Part shown: positions 37,313 through 50,106 of the stretch, in pieces
How the letters are laid out: the number at the start of each line of letters is the position of its first letter
How positions within the stretch are numbered: the first letter of the stretch is position 1
Assembly (NCBI RefSeq): GCF_026041215.1
Contig: NZ_JAPEIQ010000011.1
Coordinates: forward strand, 1 to 64,000
DNA length: 64,000 bases
Direction of reading: 5' to 3'
Source of the DNA: Hoyosella sp. YIM 151337
GTDB lineage: Bacteria; Actinomycetota; Actinomycetes; Mycobacteriales; Mycobacteriaceae
Notes under the pieces: generated by a model
What the model saw: only the letters and a program-made list of their open reading frames with translations
Told to the model about the DNA's origin: nothing
The model's database searches: none
Made by a program: the position numbers and the translations under genes

Positions 37313-38596
37313 CTAAGCCGGTTCGAGGGCCCAGTCGCTCGTCATTTGTGTGATCAGGTCGGGAAGCCGGACGATGAGGCGGTTCGACTCAGCCTGTGGG
37401 CGGAACGATACGCCGAGATAGCGTGGTGCTTCGCTGGGCCGATCCTGAACCAGTGAGCGGAACGCGGGTACTAAGTCAAGCGCGATGTAGTCCCAGCGAG
37501 GTTCGCGGTCAGCCCAGTTGAACGCGGGCAGGGGAGTGCGCAGGGCCCAGCGCTGCCCCTCAACGGTCGCGTGCGCGGTGAGCGGCCGGAACGTGCCGAG
37601 TGGTGTGGCGCCCGGTACGTCCGGGTTGCCGCCGACCGTCGTCGCGTAGGTGAGTACTCGGCCGATGGTGCCGCGTCCGCCAGCGGTGTCGTCCCACTGG
37701 TCGGCGATGATCTGGTTTTGTTCTCGCGACGCCATCCGCACCAGCGCTTCGGCGAGCCCCTCTCGGGTTCCGCTAGCGAGCTGGAGCCACCCCTCGATGA
37801 TGTAGTCGTCGTACGCGCCAGACTGCGCGAGCTCCAGGACCCCGGCCATCCCGCGCGCAGCGTACGCCTCGTGCATCGGCACCATATCCATGAAGATGTT
37901 GCGCTGTTTGATAAGCAGCCGGTGCAGATACCAGTCGATGTCGGCCTGCGTGATGGACGGCCCGTCCGTAGCGAGAAGAACGACGTCGCGCGGCAGCTCT
38001 TCGGCGACTTCCCACGGCAGCTCCGCGATCGCGGAACCAACTGCGCTACCCAGCTCATGTATCCCCGGGACGGTGAGGAGTTGTCCGATGTCGTTCAGGT
38101 CCCAGAACCCTGCCGCAAAGGAGATGCCTGCGAGACCGGCCATTCCCGACCAGTAGAACTCGGGGTTCTCGTTGTAGAGGCGCAAGTAGTTTTCGTAGAC
38201 CTTGTCGACTGTTGCGAGGTTCGCATCGAGACCGGCGGCTGGCTCCCAGGACGCGAGGTCGATGCCTGCGTTGTCTGCCGCGACAGCTAACCAGTACTGG
38301 CGCAGCAACGTTCCGTATCGCTGGGGTGTGACGCCGGCTGCGCGGGCGCTGTCCAGGGCTGAAGCGAGGGCACGCTGGTCGAGTGGGAGGTGTGAGGCGA
38401 ATCCGCCGCTGCGTTCACCGTCGTTGTTGTCAGCCACCGCATCGAGATACTGCGCGTATGGTGCCGCTGCGGCGTGCGGGGCCGCGGCGAGCGCCGGGAT
38501 TGAACACAACAGCACACTGGCGATTGTGGCTCCGATACGTGTGCTGATGCGCATTTGCGAATAAGCGCGGCGTGAACGATGCCCGGCACACGTCAT
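37313..38596 (-). CDS. Secreted protein of unknown function
   Basis: The protein has 427 residues from an ATG with AGGGGG 9 bases upstream. A long signal peptide (about 1-50) has a twin-Arg pair at the front and likely cleaves after HAAAA. The mature part begins PYAQYLDAVADNNDG and has a Tyr/Trp-rich helical middle (QYWLAVAADNAG, YENYLRLYNENPEFYWSGMAG) and a domain with DWYLHRLLIKQRNIFMDMVPMHEAY. I recognise no catalytic motif or family. It converges with the MarR gene (2-base gap). Confidence 0.8.
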   Translation of the reverse strand: MTCAGHRSRRAYSQMRISTRIGATIASVLLCSIPALAAAPHAAAAPYAQYLDAVADNNDGERSGGFASHLPLDQRALASALDSARAAGVTPQRYGTLLRQYWLAVAADNAGIDLASWEPAAGLDANLATVDKVYENYLRLYNENPEFYWSGMAGLAGISFAAGFWDLNDIGQLLTVPGIHELGSAVGSAIAELPWEVAEELPRDVVLLATDGPSITQADIDWYLHRLLIKQRNIFMDMVPMHEAYAARGMAGVLELAQSGAYDDYIIEGWLQLASGTREGLAEALVRMASREQNQIIADQWDDTAGGRGTIGRVLTYATTVGGNPDVPGATPLGTFRPLTAHATVEGQRWALRTPLPAFNWADREPRWDYIALDLVPAFRSLVQDRPSEAPRYLGVSFRPQAESNRLIVRLPDLITQMTSDWALEPA

Positions 38597-38737: not shown

Positions 38738-38823
38738 GGAAGCGTGGCAGAGCGGCCGAATGCACTCGCCTTGAAAGCGAGCGTCGTTAACAGCGACCGG
38801 GGGTTCAAATCCCTCCGCTTCCG
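38738..38823 (+). tRNA. tRNA-Ser(TGA)
   Basis: This 86-base class II tRNA has the acceptor stem GGAAGCG/CGCTTCC, a long variable arm and GGTTCAAATCC in the T-arm. The anticodon loop CTTGAAA within ACTCGC/GCGAGC gives TGA, reading UCA codons. CCA is not encoded. Confidence 0.95.
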
Positions 38824-38827
38824 CTGT

Positions 38828-38860
38828 GGAAAGCCGAACCCCTGGCGGGTTCGGCTTTCC
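38828..38860 (+). terminator. Terminator of tRNA-Ser(TGA)
   Basis: GGAAAGCCGAACCC (38828-38841) pairs perfectly with GGGTTCGGCTTTCC (38847-38860) over a 5-base loop, 5 bases after the tRNA. The 14-pair stem is an intrinsic-type terminator without a long T-run. Confidence 0.85.
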
Positions 38861-38952
38861 TGTATTTGGAAGGATCGAGGCGCTGAGTGCGCCCCGATCG
38901 TTCACAATCGGTAGGTCCGGCTGGTCGGCCGGGGTTCTTAAGTGCCCTGTCC

Positions 38953-39006
38953 TTGGGAATCTGCCCTAGCCACGGCCGGGGCAAATTCCCAACGACGGGG
39001 CAGATT
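38953..39006. repeat. Overlapping alternative inverted repeats after the 5'-nucleotidase-like gene
   Basis: TTGGGAATCTGCCC (38953-38966) can pair with GGGCAAATTCCCAA (38979-38992), 13 of 14 pairs. Its inner part AATCTGCCC (38958-38966) can instead pair perfectly with GGGCAGATT (38998-39006). The two structures exclude each other. The region is just past the stop of the minus-strand 5'-nucleotidase-like gene, so at least one is probably its terminator. Confidence 0.6.
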
Positions 39007-39025
39007 CGACCGGTGGACGGAACGC

Positions 39026-40747
39026 CTACGACTCCTGCAGCGAAACCCGATCCTCACCGGGCACCTTCACCGGTGAATGCGTGCTGACGTAGTCCGTGAA
39101 CGCCTTGCTCGTCGTGGTTATCGCGGCGCGATCTGTGCCCGAGCCGAGGGCGGTGAATCCGAATCCGCCGATCGCGATGCGGTCCGTCACAGTGATCCGG
39201 TACGTCTCGTCGTCCACAACTGGAGAGTCTCCGATACGGATGTCCGTCACTCGTGCGCCCGGACCTGCGCCCGGGTTTATCGTGTAGGTCAGCTCTTGTG
39301 AGGGCTGCAGCATGATGTCGTCACCGTCGCGGAACTGCTGTTCGAGCGCCTCTTTCAGCTCCGCTCCGGTGAGCGAAAGCGTCACGAGCATTGCGGGTCG
39401 GGGTGCGCTAAAAGCGTCTCGGTACGTCACCGCTGAATCGAGGTCTCGCGGGGATGCTGAGGGCGGCAGCAACGCGGCTTGGGAGTCGCTGCTCGTAGCG
39501 GCGAACTGCGCCGCGTCGGCAAGGATCCGCCCGGCCGGTGATTCGCCCGCGGGCGTCGTACGGCTGAGTGCTGCACCGCTGATCTCACCGATCTGCCGAT
39601 CACCAACCTCGATGCTCAGTTCTTCCGCCCGCGCGATGATGTCCTGAGTTGTGTGATCCGGCTCGACATTGCGGGTAACGACCTGGTTGAAGGCGCTGGT
39701 GCGTTCGCGGAGCACTTCTCCGGTGTGGCGGTTGATCACGATGTCGGCCACTGAAACGGTCCTGCCGTTCGAAGCTGCGCGAATGAACGGCCGCTCTACG
39801 CCGCCAGGGTCCCGGACGGTGCAGTTGAAGGCGTCGGGCCCGCCCGCGGAGAAGATGACGTCCACATGGGGGCTCGCCTCGGTCGCGAGCGTGTACGCTG
39901 GGCCGTCCTCGATGCCGCACCCGTTAGGGCCGTCCGCGCTGCGTGCGGCAGCGTCACCGTACAGCAGCAGCGTAATTGCCTTCACTCCGAAGAACTCGAG
40001 GACCTCCGCGGTTTTTTCGATGGCCTCAAGTTCATCCTCTATCTGGACGGCATCGCCGGTGGCTCCGGCTTCGGAGGCGGTGGCCGCAGCGTCTCGCATC
40101 AGGACGCCAATCGCACCGACGGGCACATCATCCACGTAGTTGATGGAGAAGGGGAGGGTAATGGGCTCACCCGCCTCGTCAACCAGATTCGCGCCGAGCA
40201 GCGGGAAGTTCGCGCCGGTGAATTCGTCACCGAACTGACAGCCATGCTCGGGATGGCACCCGCCTTGCGCCTTGCGGAGTAGCTCACCGAGCCCTTCGGA
40301 GAGTTCAGGGGCACCCACGGCCGATGCCGCGATGTCCCACGAGTTCAGTACCTCGATCGTCGGCTCACCGGAAAACATGCGGTACGGGCCGTTACCGTCG
40401 TAGGCGACGTTTCCGCCTCCCGAATACAGCAAAGAACGAGGCGCCTGGCGCCGCAGTTGGTCGAGAAATGCTGCCAAGTATCCAGCGCCGCCAGCGTCCA
40501 CGCGGGAACCATCAGATTGAATGAGCGATCCGGCGTCTCCCTCAGGCGGGCGCAGGCTGTCGCCGAGATCTCCGAACGATAACAAGCGCACTTCGACATC
40601 GTCCACTTGATTGTTGCGCGGATGCAGAGCCGGTGCCGCCGCGGCAACTGGAAGTGAAGTCAGCAGCAGCGCAGCTGAGCCCGCTAACGCGGTTGCAAGG
40701 CGAAGGGACCGCGAGGAGGGTGCTGCAGAGCCACCGTGGCGGGGCAT
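39026..40747 (-). CDS. 5'-nucleotidase/metallophosphatase homologue lacking metal ligands
   Basis: The protein has 573 residues, with AGGAGGT before the ATG and a signal peptide at about 15-38. It aligns along its whole length with secreted bifunctional 5'-nucleotidases, including the C-terminal substrate domain (FIRAASNGRTVSVADIVINRHTG and ALEQQFRDGDDIMLQPSQELTYT). The metal-site motifs are altered, however. NDFHG is GDLGD, the GD(L/N)xGxS loop is SGGGNVAYDG, GNHEFD is GAPELSE, LxHxG is LLYGDA and GHTH is AGGPDA. I therefore expect no metal-dependent hydrolysis; it may bind nucleotides or have another role outside the cell. Confidence 0.88.
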   Translation of the reverse strand: MPRHGGSAAPSSRSLRLATALAGSAALLLTSLPVAAAAPALHPRNNQVDDVEVRLLSFGDLGDSLRPPEGDAGSLIQSDGSRVDAGGAGYLAAFLDQLRRQAPRSLLYSGGGNVAYDGNGPYRMFSGEPTIEVLNSWDIAASAVGAPELSEGLGELLRKAQGGCHPEHGCQFGDEFTGANFPLLGANLVDEAGEPITLPFSINYVDDVPVGAIGVLMRDAAATASEAGATGDAVQIEDELEAIEKTAEVLEFFGVKAITLLLYGDAAARSADGPNGCGIEDGPAYTLATEASPHVDVIFSAGGPDAFNCTVRDPGGVERPFIRAASNGRTVSVADIVINRHTGEVLRERTSAFNQVVTRNVEPDHTTQDIIARAEELSIEVGDRQIGEISGAALSRTTPAGESPAGRILADAAQFAATSSDSQAALLPPSASPRDLDSAVTYRDAFSAPRPAMLVTLSLTGAELKEALEQQFRDGDDIMLQPSQELTYTINPGAGPGARVTDIRIGDSPVVDDETYRITVTDRIAIGGFGFTALGSGTDRAAITTTSKAFTDYVSTHSPVKVPGEDRVSLQES

Positions 40748-40910
40748 CAGCTACCTCCTTCCTCGTTGTCACATGCTTCATCGCATGTCGCTGGGCGGGC
40801 ACAGCGTATCGACCACCACCTCTAGTGTCAGGCCAGTTGGTGCCTCGAACGTGGCGCATTGCGGTCACAGTTCTGTCACGGGTGTGGCAGTAACGAACTT
40901 TTGTGACGCA

Positions 40911-42014
40911 TCACACCGCGTTGAGGATACCTGCCGCCGAATCGCTCAATGCGAACCGGAGGAAAACATCGTTTTCGGCTGGGGTCCCGATTGTGACTCG
41001 CGCCCCCTCCCCGGCAAATGGCCGGATCAGCACACCTGCTTCGGCGCAGCGGGCTGCGAAGGCCTCTGTTGACGCCCCGAGGTCCAGCCAGACGAAATTC
41101 GCCTGCGTCTCGGGAATGCGATAACCGGCCGCGGTGAGCGCGTCGCGAACCCGCTCACGTTCCTTCACCACGGCATCGGTCCGATGAAGCAGTTCTTTCG
41201 CTGCTTCCAGGGACGCGATTGCTGCCGCCTGCGCAATGCTGTTCGCACTGAACGGGACGTACACCTTGCCCAGTGTTGTAATGACCTCTGGGTGACCGAC
41301 CGCGTAACCGACGCGAAGCCCGGCAAGTCCGTACGCCTTGGAAAAAGTGCGCAGCACCACGACATTGGACCGGCTTCGCTGAAGCTCGACACCATCCGGC
41401 AGATCACCTTCCGCGAACCCGTCCGGGCGCAGATACTCAAAGTACGCCTCGTCGAGAACGACAAGGATGTGGGACGGTACCGCGTCGAGGAAACGTTCGA
41501 GCGCTGCGCTGCCGACCGCCGTACCCGTTGGGTTGTTGGGATTGCAGACGAAGATCAGTCGAGTGTTGGGGGTGATTGCCGCGACCATCGCATCAAGGTC
41601 GTGGACGGCATCGCGGTCGAGCGCAATCTTCACCGGCGTGGCGCCCGCAACCAGGCTGACGAGTGGATACGCCTCGAAGGAACGCCACGCGAACAGCACC
41701 TCGTCCCCCGGGCCGCACGTTGCCTGCACGAGCTGCTGGCACAAGCTCACCGAGCCGCAACCCACCGAAACGTGCTCTGGACCCACCTTCAGTTCATCGG
41801 CGAGCGCTGACTTCAGCGCGAGCGCGCCGTTATCCGGGTAGCGGTTCACCTCAGCCGCCGCCCGTGTGATCGCATCAACAACGCTTGGCAGGGGCCCCGG
41901 AGAGGTTTCGTTACTGGCCAGCTTGATCGCTCCGGGCCATGATTTGCCTGGAACGTAAACCGGGATGCTCGCAAGGTCGGGCCTGGTACGTGCGGTAGGT
42001 GCGGGATCACTCAC
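40911..42014 (-). CDS. hisC: Histidinol-phosphate/aromatic aminotransferase
   Basis: This class I/II PLP enzyme of 367 residues shows LASNETSPGPLPSV, NRYPDNGALALKSALA, FVCNPNNPTGTAVG, VLDEAYFEYL and the PLP lysine in RTFSKAYGLAGLRVGYAVG. It most resembles HisC2/Pat (Rv3772), an aromatic aminotransferase in the same syntenic area of M. tuberculosis; histidinol-phosphate as substrate is the alternative. The GTG at 42014 gives the family length; TAGGCT lies 7 bases before it, hinting at a leaderless message. The frame extends upstream to 42257 without support. Confidence 0.9.
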   Translation of the reverse strand: MSDPAPTARTRPDLASIPVYVPGKSWPGAIKLASNETSPGPLPSVVDAITRAAAEVNRYPDNGALALKSALADELKVGPEHVSVGCGSVSLCQQLVQATCGPGDEVLFAWRSFEAYPLVSLVAGATPVKIALDRDAVHDLDAMVAAITPNTRLIFVCNPNNPTGTAVGSAALERFLDAVPSHILVVLDEAYFEYLRPDGFAEGDLPDGVELQRSRSNVVVLRTFSKAYGLAGLRVGYAVGHPEVITTLGKVYVPFSANSIAQAAAIASLEAAKELLHRTDAVVKERERVRDALTAAGYRIPETQANFVWLDLGASTEAFAARCAEAGVLIRPFAGEGARVTIGTPAENDVFLRFALSDSAAGILNAV

Positions 42015-42090
42015 GCCTGAAAGCCTAGCGGGTGCGCGCCTCGATGAGCAGGCACTCGCAAAGCGGACAAACCGGTGGGAGAGTAGATGT

Positions 42091-42825
42091 ATGTCGGGGA
42101 TCAGTATGGTACGAATCCGGCAGGAAACAGCGGCCCTGCCGGGCAACACGAAGAACCGAGTGCCGCTCACCGTGGCTGAGCCGGAGGGCCGGCCGCGCGG
42201 AGGCATCGTCTTACTGCATGAGAGTCGATCTTTCAGTCCCAGCCTCCGCCAGTTCATGGAGGAGTTCGCGGAAGAAGGATGGACTGTTGCGGCACCTGCC
42301 CTCGCGGACGAACAGTCCGCTTCAGATTCCGGAAATGCGTTGCTTCAGGAGTTCGACGCGGCCCGGGGCTGGTTGCTTGGTGAGGAGATATATCCAGATC
42401 GCATCGGTGTGATCGGCTTCGATAGCGCCGGAACTGTCGCCGCGCTGGCTGGAGTAGAGCGGCCGCTCGGGGCAGTTGTGAGCGTCGCCGCTCACGGGAT
42501 CACGGGGCCCGTGCGTGAGGGCGTTTCACCGCTCACTGAGGCCGTGCGCCGACTGTGCGTGCCGTGGCTCGGAATCTTCGGTGACGAGGACCCCCGCACG
42601 CCGCCGGAGGAAGTGCAGCTTCTCCGTGACGCAGCTGCGCATGCCAGTGCCGCGACTCTCATCGTCACGTACCCGGGGCTTGGTCATCGGCCTGACGAAG
42701 GCCTTCCAGCCGAGCCAGCCGGGGACGTCGATGATGTGCCGGACACTGCTGATGCCTCACCGAGTGTCGCTGCTGTAGCGGCGAAACAGCACATATTTGA
42801 ATGGTTCGATAGCAACCTGCGCTGA
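42091..42825 (+). CDS. Dienelactone-hydrolase-like protein with Asp at the nucleophile position
   Basis: This alpha/beta-hydrolase fold protein of 244 residues has the dienelactone-hydrolase layout. GGIVLLHESRSFSPSLRQFMEEFAEEGWTV opens it, then comes the nucleophile elbow VIGFDSAGT, the acid in GIFGDEDPRTPPE, and the His in YPGLGHRPDEG. Dienelactone hydrolases have Cys at the elbow (GFCxGG); here the codon is GAT (Asp) and the second Gly is lost too. Either it is an Asp-nucleophile enzyme or it is inactive. An insertion rich in Asp/Pro/Ala (about 202-222) precedes the last helix. Confidence 0.82.
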   Translation: MSGISMVRIRQETAALPGNTKNRVPLTVAEPEGRPRGGIVLLHESRSFSPSLRQFMEEFAEEGWTVAAPALADEQSASDSGNALLQEFDAARGWLLGEEIYPDRIGVIGFDSAGTVAALAGVERPLGAVVSVAAHGITGPVREGVSPLTEAVRRLCVPWLGIFGDEDPRTPPEEVQLLRDAAAHASAATLIVTYPGLGHRPDEGLPAEPAGDVDDVPDTADASPSVAAVAAKQHIFEWFDSNLR

Positions 42826-42930
42826 AGGCATTGCTTTGACACAATCGGCGAGGCCTGCCCGCCCACGTGGCGTTTTGCATAGACGGGGCAGCGTGTGTAG
42901 TCTTTTCGATGGCCCACGCAAGGGGCCCAG

Positions 42931-43019
42931 GGAGGCGTGCCAGAGCGGCCGAATGGGGCTCACTGCTAATGAGTTGTCCCCCTAAAAGGGGACCGGAGGT
43001 TCAAATCCTCTCGCCTCCG
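42931..43019 (+). tRNA. tRNA-Ser(GCT)
   Basis: This 89-base class II tRNA has the acceptor GGAGGCG/CGCCTCC and a long variable arm (GTCCCC..GGGGAC). The anticodon loop CTGCTAA between GCTCA and TGAGT gives GCT, reading AGC/AGU. It is 34 bases before tRNA-Arg and may be co-transcribed with it. Confidence 0.95.
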
Positions 43020-43053
43020 CCACCGGTCAAAGCCGGTATAACTGAATAAGCTC

Positions 43054-43126
43054 GCGCTCGTAGCTCAACGGATAGAGCATCTGACTACGGATCAGAAGGT
43101 TAGGGGTTCGAATCCTCTCGGGCGCA
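43054..43126 (+). tRNA. tRNA-Arg(ACG)
   Basis: This 73-base tRNA has the acceptor GCGCTCG/CGGGCGC, D-arm AGCTCAACGGATAGAGC, anticodon ACG in CTGACTACGGATCAG, and T-arm GGGTTCGAATCC. Its A34 is the substrate of the tRNA deaminase TadA, which is encoded at 49490-49960 in this window. Confidence 0.96.
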
Positions 43127-43142
43127 CGTCTGGTTGAGACAG

Positions 43143-43175
43143 CAACTGAACCCCCTCTAGCAGGGGGTTCAGTTG
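43143..43175 (+). terminator. Terminator of the tRNA-Ser/tRNA-Arg unit
   Basis: CAACTGAACCCCCT (43143-43156) pairs perfectly with AGGGGGTTCAGTTG (43162-43175) over a 5-base loop and is followed by TTT. It lies 16 bases after tRNA-Arg. Confidence 0.88.
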
Positions 43176-43202
43176 TTTCCGCGTCTTTCGGCTGATGGGC
43201 CC

Positions 43203-43239
43203 GAATTATGGGTGGGGTGGATGTCCCACCCATAAATTC
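43203..43239. promoter_or_regulatory. Inverted repeat upstream of the LysE-type exporter
   Basis: GAATTATGGGTGGG (43203-43216) and CCCACCCATAAATTC (43225-43239) form a 14-pair inverted repeat with one bulged A and an 8-base spacer. It ends 37 bases before the exporter start, separate from the tRNA terminator, so an operator is more likely than a terminator. Confidence 0.5.
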
Positions 43240-43276
43240 CAATGCGCCGCGGTAGCGATGCAGACATACTCATCCC

Positions 43277-43894
43277 ATGACTTTCGGCCACTACGCGAGC
43301 TTGATGGCAGTGTGGGCTGTGGGGGTTGCGTCACCCGGGCCTGACGCCGTACTTGTTCTGCGTCAATCCGCGCATGGCTCGCGCCGCGCGGGTGTGGCCG
43401 CTGCCCTGGGGATCGCATCTGGCATCGCCGTATGGGTGACACTCGCGATGATTGGACTCGAGGCCGCACTCGCGAGCAATCCAGCTCTGGTGGGCGGATT
43501 ACAGGTTGCCGGGGGTCTGCTGCTCGGGTACCTCGGCGTTGCAGCGCTGAGATCCCCGGGCGGTCTCGAAACAAGCCCGTCGGCTGCGCCAGCGTTGGGC
43601 CGCCCATTCATGCTCGGGCTCGCCACCAACATCACCAACCCGAAAGCCCTGGTGTTTTTCGCAGCGGTATTCGCGACCTTGATCCCACACACCGCCACTG
43701 TTGGCGACTGGGCTACGGTTGCGGTCCTGCTGGTGCTGGCGGAGGCCGCGTGGTTCAGCGCGCTTGCCATCTTCGCGTCCTCTCGCGCGACACAGAAGTG
43801 GTTCCGCACGCGCTGGTTCGCTGTGGTGACGGGTCTGGCGTTCCTGGGACTGGGCGGCGCGGTGCTTTTTGCGGGGGTGCGCGCCTTTGGGTGA
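43277..43894 (+). CDS. LysE/RhtB family amino-acid exporter
   Basis: The protein has 205 residues and six membrane helices. VGVASPGPDAVLVLRQSAHGSRRAGVAAALGIASG is the family's N-terminal signature, and FMLGLATNITNPKALVFFAAVF is the second. It exports amino acids or homoserine-lactone-type compounds; the substrate is unknown. CATACT stands 6 bases before the ATG and no ribosome site is seen, so it may be leaderless. A strong inverted repeat is just upstream, but no regulator gene is adjacent. Confidence 0.92.
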   Translation: MTFGHYASLMAVWAVGVASPGPDAVLVLRQSAHGSRRAGVAAALGIASGIAVWVTLAMIGLEAALASNPALVGGLQVAGGLLLGYLGVAALRSPGGLETSPSAAPALGRPFMLGLATNITNPKALVFFAAVFATLIPHTATVGDWATVAVLLVLAEAAWFSALAIFASSRATQKWFRTRWFAVVTGLAFLGLGGAVLFAGVRAFG

Positions 43895-43905
43895 CATTCA
43901 GAGCG

Positions 43906-44667
43906 CTAGCCGTACAGTTTGACGAACGTCCGTAGAATCGATGGGGGATGCGCGACATCGAACTCCTGCACCCTCTCCTTCAGCGCGTCCGCCGTTTCGG
44001 GCGCGAAGTAGCCGTGATGCTTGTACACGTCAATTCGGGTGAGCATCCCAGCGACATCGAGTTCTGGGTGAAACTGCGTCGCGTACACGTTGTTGCCCAC
44101 CCGGAAAGCTTGCACCGGGCTCATCGCGGAGGACGCAAGCAGGACTGCATGTTCGGGGAGGGCGCTGATGGCCTCTTTATGGCCCACAAAGGCGTCGAAT
44201 CGCTCGGGAAGCCCCGCCATTAGTGGATCCCTGCGGCCTTCGGCGGTGAGTTCGATGCTGGTGCCTCCGACGGGCTCACTATACTTACGGTCTAGCGCGG
44301 CCCCGATGTACGTGCCGAGCGTTCCAATCCCGTAACAGCAGCCGAGAAACGGGAAGTCACGCGTGACGATCTCGTCAAGGAGCGCTTGCATGGCGCTCTC
44401 AGTGCGCCGTTGCGGCTCGGACTTCGTCTCATGCGGGTCGGTGACGTTATACGGTCCGCCGCCGAGGATGATGCCGCGCCAGTCGTCGAGCCTTATCGAG
44501 CCAAGTGGTTCGTGAGTGAGCCGGATGCGGTGAAGTTGCGCCGGTTCAAGTCCCGCGAATGTGCGCACTGCATCGTATTCCTCGTCGGCCGCCGCGTCAT
44601 CCGCCCTGATTGACAGCAGCAGGAACCGGGAATGCGTGCGTGGCAGGCGGGGCCGAGAGGTCGTCAC
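43906..44667 (-). CDS. Class I glutamine amidotransferase-like protein
   Basis: The protein has 253 residues of the GATase1 fold. IILGGGPYNVTDP is at the start, the nucleophile elbow is FPFLGCCYGIGTLG (Cys in GCCYG), and NNVYATQFHPELD carries the catalytic His-x-Glu pair. It resembles the stand-alone GuaA-like amidotransferases of actinobacteria. The acceptor of the ammonia is unknown. The GTG at 44667 is preceded by TACCAT and exactly 6 bases, a leaderless layout; the open frame up to 44826 overlaps the divergent gene. Confidence 0.85.
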   Translation of the reverse strand: MTTSRPRLPRTHSRFLLLSIRADDAAADEEYDAVRTFAGLEPAQLHRIRLTHEPLGSIRLDDWRGIILGGGPYNVTDPHETKSEPQRRTESAMQALLDEIVTRDFPFLGCCYGIGTLGTYIGAALDRKYSEPVGGTSIELTAEGRRDPLMAGLPERFDAFVGHKEAISALPEHAVLLASSAMSPVQAFRVGNNVYATQFHPELDVAGMLTRIDVYKHHGYFAPETADALKERVQEFDVAHPPSILRTFVKLYG

Positions 44668-44711
44668 ACTGGGATGGTATCGGTCGCAGCGACAGCTAGG
44701 CTGGTGTCTAG

Positions 44712-45869
44712 ATGAGGATTGTGACGCTATCTCCATGCCCAGTGACAGATTGGAGCAACGAGCGCCGGAAGGCCCAGTTGCGCGCGACGCGGCTGGGGCA
44801 CAATTGGCGCCGGTTCCGGCGTACACGCCTATTTATCGTCCTGATGTGTTTGGCGATGATTCCACCGCTGATTATGAGCACCCAATACTGGGTGCACGAC
44901 GTCCACCCGGAGCGGCAACGGCTCGCCGCGACGCAACCGCACCTGCACCACATTTTCGACGCGGCAGAGCCCGCCAACCAGGACACCGCGGTGGTCAACG
45001 TTGTGGGTTTGGGCAACCTCGATGCCAGCGATACCGCGCGGGCGCTGCCAATGTTCACCGAGCTCGGGCAAGTGTGGGCTGTGCAGTATGACAACGCTGG
45101 TATCGACACGGCTGTAATCAGCCGGATGGTGGCCGAGCATGCGACTGAGATGGGCGTGGAACGGCTGGTTTTCGTCGGTCACAGCATGGGCGGAATTGTC
45201 GCGCTCGAGGCCGCTCACCACATCGTCGACGACACCGATCTCGACCTTCTCGCGGTTGTGCTCGATTGCACTCCCATCGATCTGCACGCGGTACGACCGG
45301 AAAAGCGTGATGCCGGCGAAAACATGCTCCGCTGGATGGGGTGGCTGCCGGGAGCGCGGGAAAGCCGGGTCTTGCGATTTACCGTGGAGATGGCAGCTCG
45401 GCAGGAACGCTTTCTGACGACTCGCCCGCGCGCACTGCCGGACATAAACCAGGCCGCACTGAGCGACGCGGTCAGTGAAGTGCTGCGCGACAAGTTCTAC
45501 AACGACTCTGCCGCGAGCAACAGCCTGATCGAAGCGCAGTTCCTCGCGATCGTGGCGTCGGGTGCCGCGGACCACGTCGTGGCCCTCAGCCGCGAGAATG
45601 ATGAGCGGCCGCGTCCAGCGCTCATCTTCATGCGGCCGCACCGCGGGATCCTTGATGAAGTCGTGGACGTCGACCATACGCAGCGCGCACTATTCGACCG
45701 GGCAGGCGGGCCCGGGGGAACGCTGTTCGTCACCCGCATGTACGGAACCGGCCACGCGAATCCGATCCAGCAGCCGCATGTCTACAACGAAACAGTGAAA
45801 AACAGTGTTGTGCCGTTTGTGAACCGATTCAGTCAGCGAGACGTCGCGCTGGCCGAGCGCAGTCGGTGA
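44712..45869 (+). CDS. Membrane-anchored alpha/beta hydrolase
   Basis: The protein has 385 residues. A basic N-terminus leads into one membrane helix (LFIVLMCLAMIPPLIM, about 40-56), so the hydrolase domain lies outside the membrane. The nucleophile elbow is LVFVGHSMGGIVAL. A His near the C-terminus in MYGTGHANPIQQPHVY is the probable catalytic base. The overall form recalls the lipase-like hydrolases of mycobacteria. The substrate is unknown. It is divergent from the amidotransferase, 44 bases apart. Confidence 0.84.
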   Translation: MRIVTLSPCPVTDWSNERRKAQLRATRLGHNWRRFRRTRLFIVLMCLAMIPPLIMSTQYWVHDVHPERQRLAATQPHLHHIFDAAEPANQDTAVVNVVGLGNLDASDTARALPMFTELGQVWAVQYDNAGIDTAVISRMVAEHATEMGVERLVFVGHSMGGIVALEAAHHIVDDTDLDLLAVVLDCTPIDLHAVRPEKRDAGENMLRWMGWLPGARESRVLRFTVEMAARQERFLTTRPRALPDINQAALSDAVSEVLRDKFYNDSAASNSLIEAQFLAIVASGAADHVVALSRENDERPRPALIFMRPHRGILDEVVDVDHTQRALFDRAGGPGGTLFVTRMYGTGHANPIQQPHVYNETVKNSVVPFVNRFSQRDVALAERSR

Positions 45870-45984
45870 CACGCCGCCGGAAGGGTCGGCACTGTGCCCC
45901 GCCAGAACAGCAGCGAAACGCGCACACGGTGGGACTTCGCTCGGTTTCTTGCGCGCACGGCAGTTGGCTCCATACCGTAGGGGC

Positions 45985-46572
45985 GTGACAGACGCGCTAA
46001 CGTCGGCAGCAAACTGGCCTGCAGTTCTCACTTGGGGGGCGCATTCGGCACCCCGAATGGAGTCCGTGCGCATCCAGATTGGCGGCAAAAAGATCAAGGC
46101 GTCAGGACGGATCATCGGCGCGGATTGCGATGACCACCCAGCGTTCAGTGCGTCGTACGATCTCATCACCGACGAATTTGGGGCGACCCGACGGCTTTCG
46201 CTGCGCGCGCTGGTTGCTGCGGGGGAGCGCGTGCTGTCGGTGAGCCGCGACACCGAAGGTTATTGGACCATCCATGAAGGCAACACATCGACGCGGTCGC
46301 GCTTCAGCGGGGCGCTGGACGTTGACGTCATCCTGAGCCCATTCTTTAACGCGCTGCCGATTCGCCGCCTCGATCTGCACACTGAAGCCAACGACATCCA
46401 GGTTCCTGTCGTGTACGTTTCGCTGCCGGACTTGAAGGTGCGGGAAGAAACCCTCACCTACAGCTCACATCCAGAGGGAATCCACGTTTTCTCACCGGTT
46501 GCGAGCGCCACCGTCACCGTCGATAGTGACGGGTTCCTGATTGACTATCCTGGCCTCGGTCAGCGCATTTAG
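45985..46572 (+). CDS. Putative glycolipid-binding protein (DUF1089/PF06475 type)
   Basis: The protein has 195 residues without signal or membrane helix. SVRIQIGGKKIKASGRIIGADCDDHPAFSASYDLITD and ILSPFFNALPIRRL match the 'putative glycolipid-binding' family as I remember it; the function is poorly known. The GTG is preceded by TACCGT and exactly 6 bases, a leaderless layout, although AGGGGC could also act as a weak ribosome site. It overlaps the convergent amidase by 4 bases. Confidence 0.8.
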   Translation: MTDALTSAANWPAVLTWGAHSAPRMESVRIQIGGKKIKASGRIIGADCDDHPAFSASYDLITDEFGATRRLSLRALVAAGERVLSVSRDTEGYWTIHEGNTSTRSRFSGALDVDVILSPFFNALPIRRLDLHTEANDIQVPVVYVSLPDLKVREETLTYSSHPEGIHVFSPVASATVTVDSDGFLIDYPGLGQRI

Positions 46573-47918
46573 CGCGCCACCACCGCGCCCAGAGCCAGCG
46601 CGAGCGCGTCGGCCTCGCCGGGGTTATCGCGCGGGGCAGCCGCTATTTGTATTCCTGACGGCAAGCCGTCCTTATGGGTGATGGGCGCGGACAGCGCAGC
46701 CACGCCAAGCATGCTGAACGGAATGCACATGCGCAGCAACTCGGCACGTACGGTTACGGTCCCGCTGCTCGTTTCAGCTTCTTCCATGCCGATCGGCGTG
46801 GCACGCAGCGGCGTCGTCGCGGTGAACAGCGCGTCGATACCGGCATCACGAAGCGCCGTGAAACACTCAAGCCGAATCGCATCGCGCCTGCGCAGGGCAT
46901 GAATGTACGCGGTTGCTGAGCGGTCGCGCTGTGCGAGCAGCCGTTCGCGTGTGACGGGCTGAAAACGATCGGGCAGCGAGCTAAGGGCCGCCGTGTGCGT
47001 GGCGTACGCTTCGCTGCCAACTATCGCCCCGTAGTGCTCAACAAGCTCCTCCATATGGGGGAGTTCTACGTCGACGACAACGGCTCCCGCCGCGCGCAGC
47101 GCGCGTTCAGCGTCATCCAGAGAACGTTCGATCGACGTGTCATGCACCTGCCATGCTGCCCCGTGCAGACGACCGACGGTGAGTTCCGCCAGCGGCGTCG
47201 CCTCCGCCACGCTGCCGGTCAGTGCCTCCCATGCGTATGCCACGTCGGCAGGTGCCGCCGCCAAAAGGCCGACGTGGTCGAGCGTCGGGGACAGCGGAAA
47301 CACACCGTCGGTCGAAAGCACACCGGAGGTGGGTTTGAAACCGGTGATGCCGCACAGTGCTGCGGGTGTCCGCACGCTGCATCCAGTGTCTGTGCCCAGC
47401 GCGAGCGGCACGGTGCCGAGCGCGACCAGACCAGCGGAACCTGACGAGGAGCCGCCGGTAATGCGCTCAGCGTCAAGCGGGTTGGCTGCAGGGCCGTCTA
47501 CGCACACAGCGCCGGTAGGTCCATACGCAAACTCGTGGAGGTGTGTTTTCGCGACGACAATCGCGCCCGCCGCACGCAATCGTGTCACGATCGCAGCGTC
47601 GCGGTGTGCGGGTGGCGCGTCGGCTCGGACACCGCTTCCACAGCGGGTCGGCATGCCTGCAACGTCGATCAGGTCTTTCACTGCAACGGCTACACCGTGC
47701 AGCGGGCCGAGCGGGCCATGATCTTCGAAGTACTGATCTAGGACCTTCGCTTGCTCGCGGGCTTGCGCCGCCAAACGGGTCTGGTGACTCCGCACGGCGA
47801 CCAAATTTTCCCACGGTGTCCCCGTGAGCTCGTCAATTCGCGTCAGTGTCTGTTCGACGTGTTTACGTGCGGTGAGTTGCCCGGAAGCGAGCAACTCCGC
47901 AACGTCGCACAGCGTCAT
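46569..47918 (-). CDS. Amidase (amidase signature family)
   Basis: The protein has 449 residues. The Ser-cisSer-Lys triad is visible: Lys in VAVAVKDLIDVAG, and two Ser in the signature ITGGSSSGSAGLVALGTVPLALGTDTGCSVRTPAALCGITGFKPT. The usual DTGGSIR is DTGCSVR here. It hydrolyses an amide or allophanate-like substrate that cannot be identified; it is not GatA, because gatB/C are absent. Its ATG overlaps the tyrA stop (ATGA), so it is translated after prephenate dehydrogenase. Confidence 0.9.
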   Translation of the reverse strand: MTLCDVAELLASGQLTARKHVEQTLTRIDELTGTPWENLVAVRSHQTRLAAQAREQAKVLDQYFEDHGPLGPLHGVAVAVKDLIDVAGMPTRCGSGVRADAPPAHRDAAIVTRLRAAGAIVVAKTHLHEFAYGPTGAVCVDGPAANPLDAERITGGSSSGSAGLVALGTVPLALGTDTGCSVRTPAALCGITGFKPTSGVLSTDGVFPLSPTLDHVGLLAAAPADVAYAWEALTGSVAEATPLAELTVGRLHGAAWQVHDTSIERSLDDAERALRAAGAVVVDVELPHMEELVEHYGAIVGSEAYATHTAALSSLPDRFQPVTRERLLAQRDRSATAYIHALRRRDAIRLECFTALRDAGIDALFTATTPLRATPIGMEEAETSSGTVTVRAELLRMCIPFSMLGVAALSAPITHKDGLPSGIQIAAAPRDNPGEADALALALGAVVAR

Positions 47919-48865
47919 GAGCGCTCCTCTGGGAGGGTGAGCAGCGCCTCACCGCGCCGTCCCGCGGCACGCAACTCTTCGAGCCATCCCGGCGCGCCAG
48001 GCGAAACAGCGGTGATCGCGGATTTCTCACCGCGTCGCAGGTACCTTTGGTGCGCATCGAAGCCAGCCGCAGTAAGTTCGGCTGTCGAATCCCCAGCCAG
48101 TGCTTTACGTGCCGCGGTCAAGGTCTGTAGCGCTTCATCGAGCACGCGGCGCAGTGCGTCCGCGTTGGCCTCGCACATCGCGTCAACCAGTGCGGGTGCC
48201 GTTCCAGCAACGCGCGTCCCATCGCGGAAAGAACCCGCCGCCAGCGCGAGAGTCAGGTCGCCGCCGCGAGCGCCCGCCAGCGCGAGCGTCTCCGCGAACA
48301 GGTGCGGGAGATGCGAAATCCGGGCGGCTGCCTCATCATGCTCACCGGACTCCGCAGGAACAACGACTGACCCGCAATCAAGCGCGAGGCGAACCACGTG
48401 TTTCCACACGACAGGGTCGCGCCCGCTATCCACACTCACCACCCACCGCGCGTTCCGGAACAACTCCGCGTCGCCCGCCGCCCAGCCTGATTCCGCGGTG
48501 CCAGCCATCGGGTGCCCACCGACGTACCGTGCGTCGAGGCCATGCTTCCGTGCGAGCGCCGCAACCGGTTCCTTGACGCTGACGACATCCGTCAGAGGGC
48601 ACTGGGGCGCGTGCTCCGCCACCGCCTTCAGCACGCTATTGACAGCGGGCATTGGCACCGCGATGACGATCAGCGCACCATCCGCGCGAGCCCGCGCAAG
48701 AACCCCGCCAAGGTCGGCGCTGGCCTCGAATCCGTCAGCTGAAGCGGCGGCTGCCGCATCACCAGACCGGTTGTACCCGTAAGCTGTTCGGCCCGCGGCA
48801 CTCGCTGCGCGAAGGAGAGATCCCCCGATGAGGCCGAGACCGAGTACACATACTGGAACAGACAC
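47915..48865 (-). CDS. tyrA: Prephenate dehydrogenase TyrA
   Basis: The protein has 316 residues. The NAD-binding motif VCVLGLGLIGGSLLRAA is at the start, then TDVVSVKEPVAALARKHG, GGHPMAGTAESGWAAGDAELF (substrate-binding His/Ser region) and ISHLPHLFAETLAL. It converts prephenate (or arogenate) to the tyrosine precursor. AGGAAC precedes the GTG at 48865; the longer frame to 49003 lacks support. The amidase follows with ATGA overlap. A 20-base palindrome lies upstream. HisC/Pat at 40911 could supply the transamination step. Confidence 0.92.
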   Translation of the reverse strand: MSVPVCVLGLGLIGGSLLRAASAAGRTAYGYNRSGDAAAAASADGFEASADLGGVLARARADGALIVIAVPMPAVNSVLKAVAEHAPQCPLTDVVSVKEPVAALARKHGLDARYVGGHPMAGTAESGWAAGDAELFRNARWVVSVDSGRDPVVWKHVVRLALDCGSVVVPAESGEHDEAAARISHLPHLFAETLALAGARGGDLTLALAAGSFRDGTRVAGTAPALVDAMCEANADALRRVLDEALQTLTAARKALAGDSTAELTAAGFDAHQRYLRRGEKSAITAVSPGAPGWLEELRAAGRRGEALLTLPEERS

Positions 48866-48898
48866 GTTCCTAGCCTTGCACACGTTGAGGGAACGTGT

Positions 48899-48918
48899 CT
48901 CCCAGCGAACGCTGGGAG
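48899..48918. promoter_or_regulatory. 20-bp palindrome between tyrA and the TadA partner gene
   Basis: CTCCCAGCG-AA-CGCTGGGAG, with perfect 9-base arms and a 2-base centre, is 34 bases upstream of tyrA and 61 bases upstream of the divergent gene. The short centre favours a protein-binding site over an RNA hairpin. Confidence 0.5.
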
Positions 48919-48966
48919 TTCTCCAACGATTTGCCGCCAGATGTTCCTTGCGCCTGTCCTGCGCGC

Positions 48967-48972
48967 TAACCT
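48967..48972 (+). promoter_or_regulatory. -10 box of a leaderless transcript
   Basis: TAACCT is followed by 6 bases (CACCGC) and the ATG at 48979. There is no ribosome site, so the message probably starts at the ATG. Confidence 0.5.
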
Positions 48973-48978
48973 CACCGC

Positions 48979-49509
48979 ATGGCTGCACAGCGCGCTCGCA
49001 CACAAAAAGATGACGAGTTCGACATCGATGGTTTCGGTATTGGGGTTGTCCGGGAAGAGGGACGCTGGCGGTGCTTTCCGCTGCCCACGGTTGCGCTCAC
49101 AAGTCTGAGCGAGGTCGAGACGGAACTGCGTGAACTGCGAAGCTCAGGAGCCACTTTCGGACTCCTCGACGTGGACGATGAGTTCTTCGTAATCGTGCGA
49201 CCAGGACCCTCAGGGACGCGGCTGCTGCTTTCCGACGCGGCCGCTGCTATCGACTACGACATCGCGGCCGATGTGCTCGAGGAACTCAATGTGGACGTGC
49301 CCGACCTCGACCCCGATGAACTTGATGAGACCGACCCATGGGAAGAAGGCGACCTCGGAATCCTCGCAGATCTGGGTGTGCCCGAGCCATTGATGAGCGT
49401 GATACTGGCGGAAACGGACTTGTACCCGGATGAGCAATTACAGATGATCGCGGAGCGGCTTGGGTTCGAAAGGGAGTTCGCCTCGGTTGTCGACTCCATT
49501 CAGAAGTAG
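48979..49509 (+). CDS. tRNA adenosine deaminase-associated protein
   Basis: This acidic protein of 176 residues is of the kind found directly upstream of tadA in most actinobacteria. It has IGVVREEGRWRCFPL, a DVDDEFFVIVRPGPSGTRLLLSDA strand-rich part and a long Asp/Glu stretch (ELNVDVPDLDPDELDETDPWEEGDLGILADLG). Its biochemical role is not established. Its end overlaps tadA by about 20 bases, so the two are coupled. Confidence 0.92.
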   Translation: MAAQRARTQKDDEFDIDGFGIGVVREEGRWRCFPLPTVALTSLSEVETELRELRSSGATFGLLDVDDEFFVIVRPGPSGTRLLLSDAAAAIDYDIAADVLEELNVDVPDLDPDELDETDPWEEGDLGILADLGVPEPLMSVILAETDLYPDEQLQMIAERLGFEREFASVVDSIQK

Positions 49510-49960
49510 TCTGAGCGACGCCGACTACCTCGGGGCGGCGATCGATGCCGCGGGGTTAGCCGGACACGATGACGTGCCTGTGGGCGCGGTCGTCTTCGCC
49601 CCGGACGGCTCGATACTTGCCCGCGCCGGCAACGCCCGAGAGCAACTCGGAGACCCCACTGCACATGCCGAGATCCTGGCATTGCGGGAAGCTGCGCGCG
49701 TGTACGGGGACGGCTGGCGCCTCGAAGGCACGACGCTCGCGGTAACACTCGAACCGTGCACCATGTGCGCGGGTGCGATCGTCCTCGCCCGGGTAGCTCG
49801 TTTGGTGTTCGGGGCGTGGGAACCGAAGACAGGCGCTGTGGGTTCGTTGTGGGATGTGGTGCGTGACCGGCGGCTCACCCACCGGCCTCACGTGCGCGGT
49901 GGGGTGCGGGAAGCCGAATGCGTGGCGCTGCTCGACGCATTCTTCGCCCAGCATCGTTAA
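49490..49960 (+). CDS. tadA: tRNA-specific adenosine deaminase TadA
   Basis: This zinc deaminase of 156 residues converts A34 to inosine in tRNA-Arg(ACG). The zinc and proton-shuttle motif is PTAHAEILAL and the two Cys ligands are in LEPCTMCAGAIV. VFGAWEPKTGAVGS and the C-terminal RGGVREAECVALL are also typical. The TTG at 49490 has AAAGGGAG upstream at a good distance; a TTG at 49460 is the alternative. The substrate tRNA-Arg(ACG) is encoded 6 kb to the left. Confidence 0.92.
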   Translation, partial: STPFRSSLSDADYLGAAIDAAGLAGHDDVPVGAVVFAPDGSILARAGNAREQLGDPTAHAEILALREAARVYGDGWRLEGTTLAVTLEPCTMCAGAIVLARVARLVFGAWEPKTGAVGSLWDVVRDRRLTHRPHVRGGVREAECVALLDAFFAQHR

Positions 49961-50015
49961 TTGGCGATGACCTGCGGATTCGGAGCTAAGTGCCGCCTCA
50001 GGTACAGTTGTGCGC

Positions 50016-50103
50016 GGTGGCGTGTCCGAGCGGCCGAAGGTGCAGCACTCGAAATGCTGTGACGGGTAACCCCCGTCCGAGGGTTCAAATCCCTCCGCCA
50101 CCG
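50016..50103 (+). tRNA. tRNA-Ser(CGA)
   Basis: This 88-base class II tRNA has the acceptor GGTGGCG/CGCCACC and the anticodon loop CTCGAAA between CAGCA and TGCTG, giving CGA, which reads UCG. The variable arm is long (GACGGG..CCCGTC) and CCA is not encoded. Confidence 0.95.
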
Positions 50104-50106
50104 CTC

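Follow-up and report, generated by a model that had tools for sequence, protein, structure and literature searches.

The window analysed here, a stretch of 64,000 nucleotides from contig NZ_JAPEIQ010000011.1 of Hoyosella sp. YIM 151337, carries on its reverse strand an uninterrupted open reading frame that starts with ATG and encodes a protein of 573 amino acids (P0001, to which all residue numbers refer; Table 1). An initial annotation, made from the letters of the window alone, had described the frame as intact and equipped with a ribosome site. This holds, as the frame is open and an AGGAGGT sequence lies 5 bases before the ATG. By eye, the N-terminus has the look of a Sec-type signal peptide that ends in AAAAPA and is apparently cleavable, and no anchor is visible in the protein, so that the cell-surface location that had been proposed is not evident from the sequence. 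The sole Pfam domain found was 5_nucleotid_C (PF02872; E 1.9e-19, 70.7 bits, cut-off 23.6), and Pfam gave no match to Metallophos (PF00149) at E <= 1. NCBIfam models of secreted nucleotidases matched the protein as well, two of them across most of its length, with all scores far below the cut-offs. Judged by its sequence, the 573-aa protein is a homologue, or descendant, of the two-domain 5'-nucleotidases of the UshA/CD73 type.

The gene lies downstream of an aminotransferase gene which we take to be hisC/pat-like. On its other side it adjoins a gene for a secreted-looking protein of about 420 aa (37313-38575, minus strand), which is found nearby in all three Hoyosella genomes at 75% identity; of the remaining loci whose flanks exceed 8 kb, a single one (L033) gave a match, short and with 34% identity. 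The only Pfam match of this protein is a 21-residue stretch of DUF2515. Three tRNA-Ser genes (tga, gct, cga) and one tRNA-Arg(acg) gene lie inside 12 kb (38738-50104), and the tga, gct and acg genes recur at the same locus in other genera.

Table 1. Features of the putative pseudo-5'-nucleotidase locus of Hoyosella. Coordinates are positions in the window.
Feature	Coordinates	Strand	Basis and remarks
Pseudo-5'-nucleotidase gene, putatively secreted product, 573 aa	39026..40747	-	ORF, translation, homology, orthologues
Shine-Dalgarno-like AGGAGGT	40753..40759	-	5 bases ahead of ATG; read off the sequence
Probable signal peptide, residues 1-38	40634..40747	-	Basic start, hydrophobic stretch, AxA-type end; by eye
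Former NDFHG, now GDLGD, residues 59-63	40559..40573	-	Asp60 retained, His position is Gly62; alignment
Former GD loop, now SGGGNVAYDG, residues 109-118	40394..40423	-	GD is G111-G112, bridging Asp position is Gly112; alignment
Former GNHE, now GAPE, residues 145-148	40304..40315	-	Metal Asn replaced by Ala146, catalytic His by Pro147; alignment
Former LxHxG, now LLYGDA, residues 261-266	39950..39967	-	Metal His is Tyr263; alignment
Former GHxH, now AGGPDA, residues 301-306	39830..39847	-	Both His replaced, by Gly302 and Pro304; alignment
5_nucleotid_C domain (PF02872), residues 386-534	39146..39592	-	Pfam match
Former NPGGxR loop, residues about 428-434	39446..39466	-	Asn and Arg gone; loop alignment less certain
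Former QPFxN base-stacking segment, residues about 448-453	39389..39406	-	Phe and Asn gone; alignment
Former NxFLAxGGD segment, residues 521-529	39161..39187	-	Second stacking Phe replaced by Arg523, Asp by Phe529; alignment
Upstream aminotransferase (Aminotran_1_2), syntenic anchor of the clade	40911..42257	-	ORF and Pfam; true start uncertain
tRNA-Ser(tga), downstream neighbour	38738..38824	+	Within the available flank in 21/47 clade rows with flanks over 8 kb

Metal, catalytic and nucleotide-pocket residues are lost in Hoyosella

For comparison with relatives we drew 401 genomes of the family, 130 of which held a match at E <= 1e-20. The alignment comprises 97 rows: 83 of the 130 matching genomes contributed 84 rows, other families of the order contributed 8 genomes, and 5 named records were added. 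All row counts refer to these 97 aligned rows, the other 47 matching genomes lying outside the alignment. Fifteen columns were treated as functional: seven metal ligands, two catalytic residues and six residues of the nucleotide pocket. We adopted UshA residue numbers as presumed labels for the ligand columns and took the Asp partner of the GNHE catalytic His to be the second catalytic residue. The pocket was defined by two stacking Phe (Tyr was accepted for the first), an Asn and an Asp that bind the base, and two residues of the NPGGxR loop, its Asn and its Arg. The set of seven dinuclear metal ligands was taken from passages describing Efn1 (PMC11708047).

All 15 functional residues are kept in 22/22 canonical rows. 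In contrast, the three Hoyosella rows agree in keeping one of seven metal ligands (Asp60), none of the catalytic pair, which is replaced by Pro147 and Ser150, and none of the six pocket residues. Both stacking Phe have become Arg, the base-binding Asn is Ala and the phosphate-binding Arg is Pro, the alignment of the Arg loop being less sure. The five motif changes listed in the initial annotation (GDLGD, SGGGNVAYDG, GAPE, LLYGDA and AGGPDA) were found as described, with conserved flanks in the alignment to relatives of 42-47% identity. Its view that the whole metal centre is altered goes slightly too far: six of seven ligands are lost, but Asp60, the first metal Asp, is kept. The loss of the C-terminal pocket is an addition to these observations, which had concerned the metal centre. 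The GD loop is moreover 3-4 residues longer in the Hoyosella protein than in its relatives according to the alignment. Misalignment of the motifs was considered and is unlikely, because the residues flanking them match in many relatives.

The losses are concentrated at the functional columns. Among 73 columns that are invariant in the canonical rows, 28 are lost in all three Hoyosella species; these include 14 of the 15 functional columns versus 14 of the 58 others (Fisher p = 1.3e-6, with columns treated as independent). The pattern also bears on the idea, raised in the initial annotation, that the protein is a nucleotide sensor or scavenger which no longer catalyses but still binds nucleotides through its C-terminal domain. 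While PF02872 is present in the Hoyosella protein, the residues that would stack on the base, form hydrogen bonds with it and hold the phosphate are gone (0/6), and because of this pocket loss we reject the idea as first choice and rate it quite unlikely for Hoyosella. It could hold in the genera g14 and g27, which keep the pocket despite the loss of metal ligands.

The fold itself seems to be retained. We obtained AlphaFold models from 6 aligned rows (mean pLDDT 42.3) and from 7 aligned rows (54.8), and used the 7-row model solely for matching the fold of the N-domain, not for ligand geometry. At this confidence (pLDDT 54.8), the N-domain model best matches CD73-type structures (best E 2.3e-9, TM about 0.53, rmsd about 7). 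The nearest solved structures found by a profile of the clade described below are 3ivd, 2z1a, snake-venom 5'-nucleotidase and CD73, with UshA lower down.

The orthologues form a clade at one locus

The protein was found in all three Hoyosella genomes examined; the other two copies are 75-76% identical to it and their frames are open. A tree separated a clade of 75 rows from eight genera, Hoyosella among them, from the 22 canonical rows (SH-aLRT 99; the trees are quick ones calculated without bootstrap, with warnings on long rows such as G199 and G119b). The split persists without the motif columns, in a tree where two long canonical rows, G038 and G073, join. The 75 clade rows stand for 73 genomes plus two named Rhodococcus rows that are the same or nearly the same as rows of genus g24. 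We use the label Rhodococcus for g24, which has a row identical to Rhodococcus sp. ARC_M6; g10 and g16 are possibly Rhodococcus in other taxonomies.

Two features set the clade apart from the canonical rows. The first His of GHxH is present in 0/75 clade rows versus 22/22 canonical rows, a difference for which one change on the tree suffices. The aminotransferase gene lies upstream on the same strand in 75/75 clade rows versus 0/22 canonical rows, seven of the latter having less than 3 kb of upstream sequence. Where the flanks of a clade row exceed 8 kb, tRNA-Ser(gct) is found upstream (47/47) and, within the available flank, tRNA-Ser(tga) downstream (21/47); a MarR regulator and a quinone-oxidoreductase-like gene come next in part of these loci. 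The canonical relative G073, from another family, has its gene in the same neighbourhood but beyond tRNA-Ser(tga) and MarR, with the aminotransferase about 20 kb off on the same contig. This position hints at a descent of the clade from a canonical enzyme near the present locus.

Some genera lack the gene at this locus. At 33 aminotransferase loci (one of only 2.9 kb) of genomes without the clade gene, a search with profiles of the clade, of the canonical rows and of both combined gave no credible match to a trace of it; chance-level scores turned up at two loci, in one case within the frame of the aminotransferase. In G023 and G013, two of these 33, tRNA-Ser(tga) lies about 70-100 bases past the aminotransferase match, so close that there is no space for the clade gene. 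Some of the 33 genomes, among them G024, G029, G053 and G073, carry a canonical copy at another place. Two scans of viral contigs yielded two relatives in one and none in the other, and one of these relatives is a row of the alignment.

Outside the former active site the clade shows conservation of two kinds. Phe353 and Gln355, both of which lie between the domains, reach 99% and 100% in the clade versus 0% in the canonical rows (genus-weighted), and their fixation suggests a constraint unrelated to the old active site. Cysteines 164, 170, 277 and 309 are present at 90% or more in clade and canonical rows alike and are retained in 3/3 Hoyosella genomes, as are many glycines in the Hoyosella protein.

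Active-site residues have been lost to different depths

The number of metal ligands kept falls from 7/7 in 22/22 canonical rows through the genera of the clade. Six are kept in 20 of 23 Rhodococcus rows (five in 2 and four in 1), five in 9/9 rows of g10, four in 3 rows of g16 and five in 1, four in 16/16 rows of g27, three in 4/4 rows of g14, one in 11 rows of g4 and two in 1, and one in 3 rows of g21 and two in 1. The catalytic His and Asp are both present in every Rhodococcus, g10, g27 and g14 row and both missing in Hoyosella. Retention of the six pocket residues runs from all six in Rhodococcus, g10 and g14 (4/4 rows) through 6/6 in 13 and 5/6 in 3 of the 16 g27 rows, five or six in g16 and three or four in g4 to one in g21 and none in Hoyosella. 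Orthologues with canonical ligands had been named in the initial annotation as evidence that would tell against its reading. They exist in part, as the Rhodococcus rows with six of seven ligands, but none of the 75 clade rows has the full functional set. The PF00149 domain was recognised at E <= 0.01 in 9 of 22 clade members versus 19 of 20 members of a set made of 19 canonical rows and one Rhodococcus clade row, in line with the fall in ligands. The model does poorly on canonical rows too, giving the first member of that set 20.8 (cut-off 21.5).

In place of the first GHxH His, 49/75 clade rows have Asp; in place of the LxH His, 18/75 have Tyr, Hoyosella included. We compared the conservation of the nine metal and catalytic columns within genera with 500 random draws of N-domain columns, leaving out G199 (g4), G119a (g21) and the two named Rhodococcus rows (g24). 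The draws that reached their conservation numbered 3 of 500 in g10, 2 in g27 and none in Rhodococcus, so that the proteins of these three genera may well be active enzymes whose site is altered. In Hoyosella, the same columns have a conservation of 0.852 versus 0.869 in the rest of the N-domain, a value reached by 377 of 500 draws. As the columns of the former site are no more conserved than the rest of the N-domain, nothing indicates that a new site has arisen at just this place.

We therefore weighed, for Hoyosella, a remodelled metalloenzyme in which Asp60, Tyr263 and the shifted acids Asp63, Asp265 and Asp305 form a different, perhaps mononuclear metal site that acts on a non-nucleotide substrate. 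Asp60 is kept, the other four residues are identical in all three Hoyosella rows, and the Asp and Tyr that recur in the clade at the GHxH and LxH positions can bind metal. Against this stand the Gly in place of the bridging Asp, the Ala in place of the metal Asn, the Pro in place of the catalytic His and the average conservation of the nine columns. We regard a remodelled site as unlikely and nonetheless keep it in view, because several acids close to the former site are conserved and the quality of the model does not allow them to be placed.

Several genera deserve mention in their own right. Genus g4 forms a separate, very long branch, and most of its rows share a nearly fixed set of residues at motif positions one to five (Glu, Ser, Asp, Arg, Arg); its near-complete loss may be independent of that in Hoyosella. 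The g4 row of G199 (L107) differs strongly from the others. In the g27 rows (e.g. L069), the LxH His is Tyr in 15/16 and Phe in one, both His of GHxH are acids and the pocket is retained, which makes the g27 protein a candidate nucleotide binder or altered-metal enzyme. In G232 (C1:350202-351874; assembly 79% complete) and G270 (C26:18592-20246; assembly 75% complete) the clade gene matches in two pieces, and this could be an assembly error or a true breakage.

The Hoyosella gene shows purifying selection in one species pair and no paralogue in its genome

For the Hoyosella pair G001-G002, dN/dS of the mature protein was 0.063 (NG86) or 0.060 (YN00), a value from the one species pair close enough for the estimate. 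Split by part, dN/dS was 0.0149/0.3332 in the N-domain, 0.0221/0.1748 in the C-domain and 0.041/0.2159 in the neighbouring aminotransferase; the ratio of the N-domain is thus lower than that of the aminotransferase, and that of the C-domain is higher than that of the N-domain. Two Rhodococcus pairs gave similar values (0.08 by NG86 and 0.03-0.06 by YN00), and in the strongly eroded genera g21 and g4 the NG86 ratio was 0.14-0.18.

A dN/dS of 0.06 indicates that the Hoyosella gene is not simply decaying. A relic in slow decay, whose function is gone and whose frame has stayed open by chance, would be in keeping with the long branches (0.66 changes per column to Hoyosella and g21, and 0.55 to Hoyosella), with losses that vary among genera and with the two-piece matches in G232 and G270. 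Yet besides the low dN/dS, the open frame and the cysteines are found in 3/3 Hoyosella genomes, and the absence of the gene from the locus in some genera argues that it is dispensable where not needed. We consider a relic very unlikely. A pseudogene in the strict sense is likewise disfavoured by dN/dS and by the open orthologues.

A decoy had been among the suggestions of the initial annotation. In the Hoyosella genome there is neither a second match to the protein nor another PF02872 protein, so a decoy for an active paralogue is unlikely there and was rejected. Of the 40 clade genomes that were searched, 38 have the clade protein as their sole PF02872 protein, and in most of these genomes there is therefore no active family paralogue to regulate, help or mimic. 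The two exceptions, G119 and G199, each have a second PF02872 protein. In G119, which belongs to the sister genus g21, the two copies (L071 and L072) differ: the one next to the aminotransferase is eroded, and the other, elsewhere in the genome, is canonical by alignment. The window genome also holds two PhoD-type matches, and these proteins could serve phosphate uptake.

A proposed non-catalytic role for an eroded 5'-nucleotidase

We favour the reading, with a probability of roughly 0.6, that the Hoyosella protein is a pseudoenzyme maintained by selection and exported, which serves in binding or as a scaffold without catalysis and stands at the far end of a graded series. The selected pseudoenzyme proposed by the initial annotation is supported by open frames in 3/3 genomes, by a dN/dS of 0.06 from one species pair and by the concentration of losses at functional columns. 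In terms of catalytic-residue loss, fold and purifying selection the protein is a pseudoenzyme, given a fold model of low confidence and a single species pair. The exported, folded two-domain body would act without catalysis, as a binder or scaffold in the envelope or outside the cell, and what it binds might be a protein partner or a non-nucleotide ligand.

We speculate that such a role existed beside catalysis already in the common ancestor of the clade, in which case catalysis could fade to different depths in each genus. The conserved metal site in Rhodococcus, g10 and g27 means that the clade as a whole is not dead, so the ancestral non-catalytic role is a guess. In active enzymes, a linker of about 20 residues connects the domains, which turn by about 96 degrees in the cycle, according to the sections consulted of PMC10454023. 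The fixed, altered inter-domain segment with Phe353 and Gln355 would fit a body that no longer cycles, and its presence in the possibly active Rhodococcus proteins is left unexplained by this. Taken together, a wider account can be offered tentatively, at slightly less than even odds: a single actinobacterial family has, in eight of its genera and at one fixed locus, a secreted 5'-nucleotidase whose non-catalytic function would be as old as the clade, and catalysis would have faded stepwise and to unequal depths, with metal centre and pocket lost in Hoyosella and nearly so in its sister g21, and the metal centre lost, perhaps separately, in g4. The clade would then be a living ladder from enzyme to pseudoenzyme.

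No account of this protein as a pseudoenzyme was found in the literature searched, which includes few subscription papers; among papers on inactive calcineurin-like proteins, no title concerned a pseudoenzyme of this family. A survey reports, in the sections consulted, that Hoyosellaceae, Gordoniaceae and Dietziaceae are without ushA-like genes and that Nocardiaceae have them (PMC10454023). The survey required an alignment score above 150 and a coverage above 70%, and itself cautions that distant homologues may escape (PMC10454023). The absence call for Hoyosellaceae fits the divergence seen in the Hoyosella protein. This is a pitfall for annotation: PF02872 alone would suggest a 5'-nucleotidase, and a strict similarity cut-off an absent gene. 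Pseudoenzymes are often dead copies next to an active paralogue. Here it is the orthologue itself that is eroded, to unequal depths in neighbouring genera, at one locus and mostly as the sole PF02872 protein of the genome. Such graded erosion of one orthologue should permit a direct test of the order in which chemistry was lost and a new role gained.

Comparison with known systems

The Hoyosella protein shares with 5'-nucleotidases of the UshA/CD73 type the two-domain length, PF02872 and many conserved glycines, and differs from them in the missing PF00149 match and in the residues kept (1/7 metal, 0/2 catalytic, 0/6 pocket). With the aminotransferase-linked orthologues of Rhodococcus it has in common the locus, the clade, the lost GHxH His and the inter-domain residues. 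Unlike Hoyosella, these orthologues keep six of seven ligands in 20/23 rows and the catalytic pair and pocket in 23/23, and they may be enzymes.

A more distant parallel is POLD2, a calcineurin-like phosphoesterase without activity that serves DNA polymerase delta as its p50 scaffold subunit. The likeness lies in a metallophosphoesterase fold whose metal site is gone and which binds protein, and the Hoyosella N-domain model gave weak Foldseek matches to it (6tny_B, 9ekb_B and 3e0j, E 0.007-0.04). POLD2 differs as a nuclear eukaryotic subunit that lacks a 5_nucleotid_C domain and has no close kinship with the Hoyosella protein. For SntA of Streptococcus suis, a CpdB-like surface protein, the portions consulted of two papers report heme binding and interference with complement (PMC5964162, PMC8981391). 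SntA has phosphodiesterase activity and a wall anchor, neither of which is visible in the Hoyosella protein, and its reported interactions suggest that the two-domain fold can bind things at the surface.
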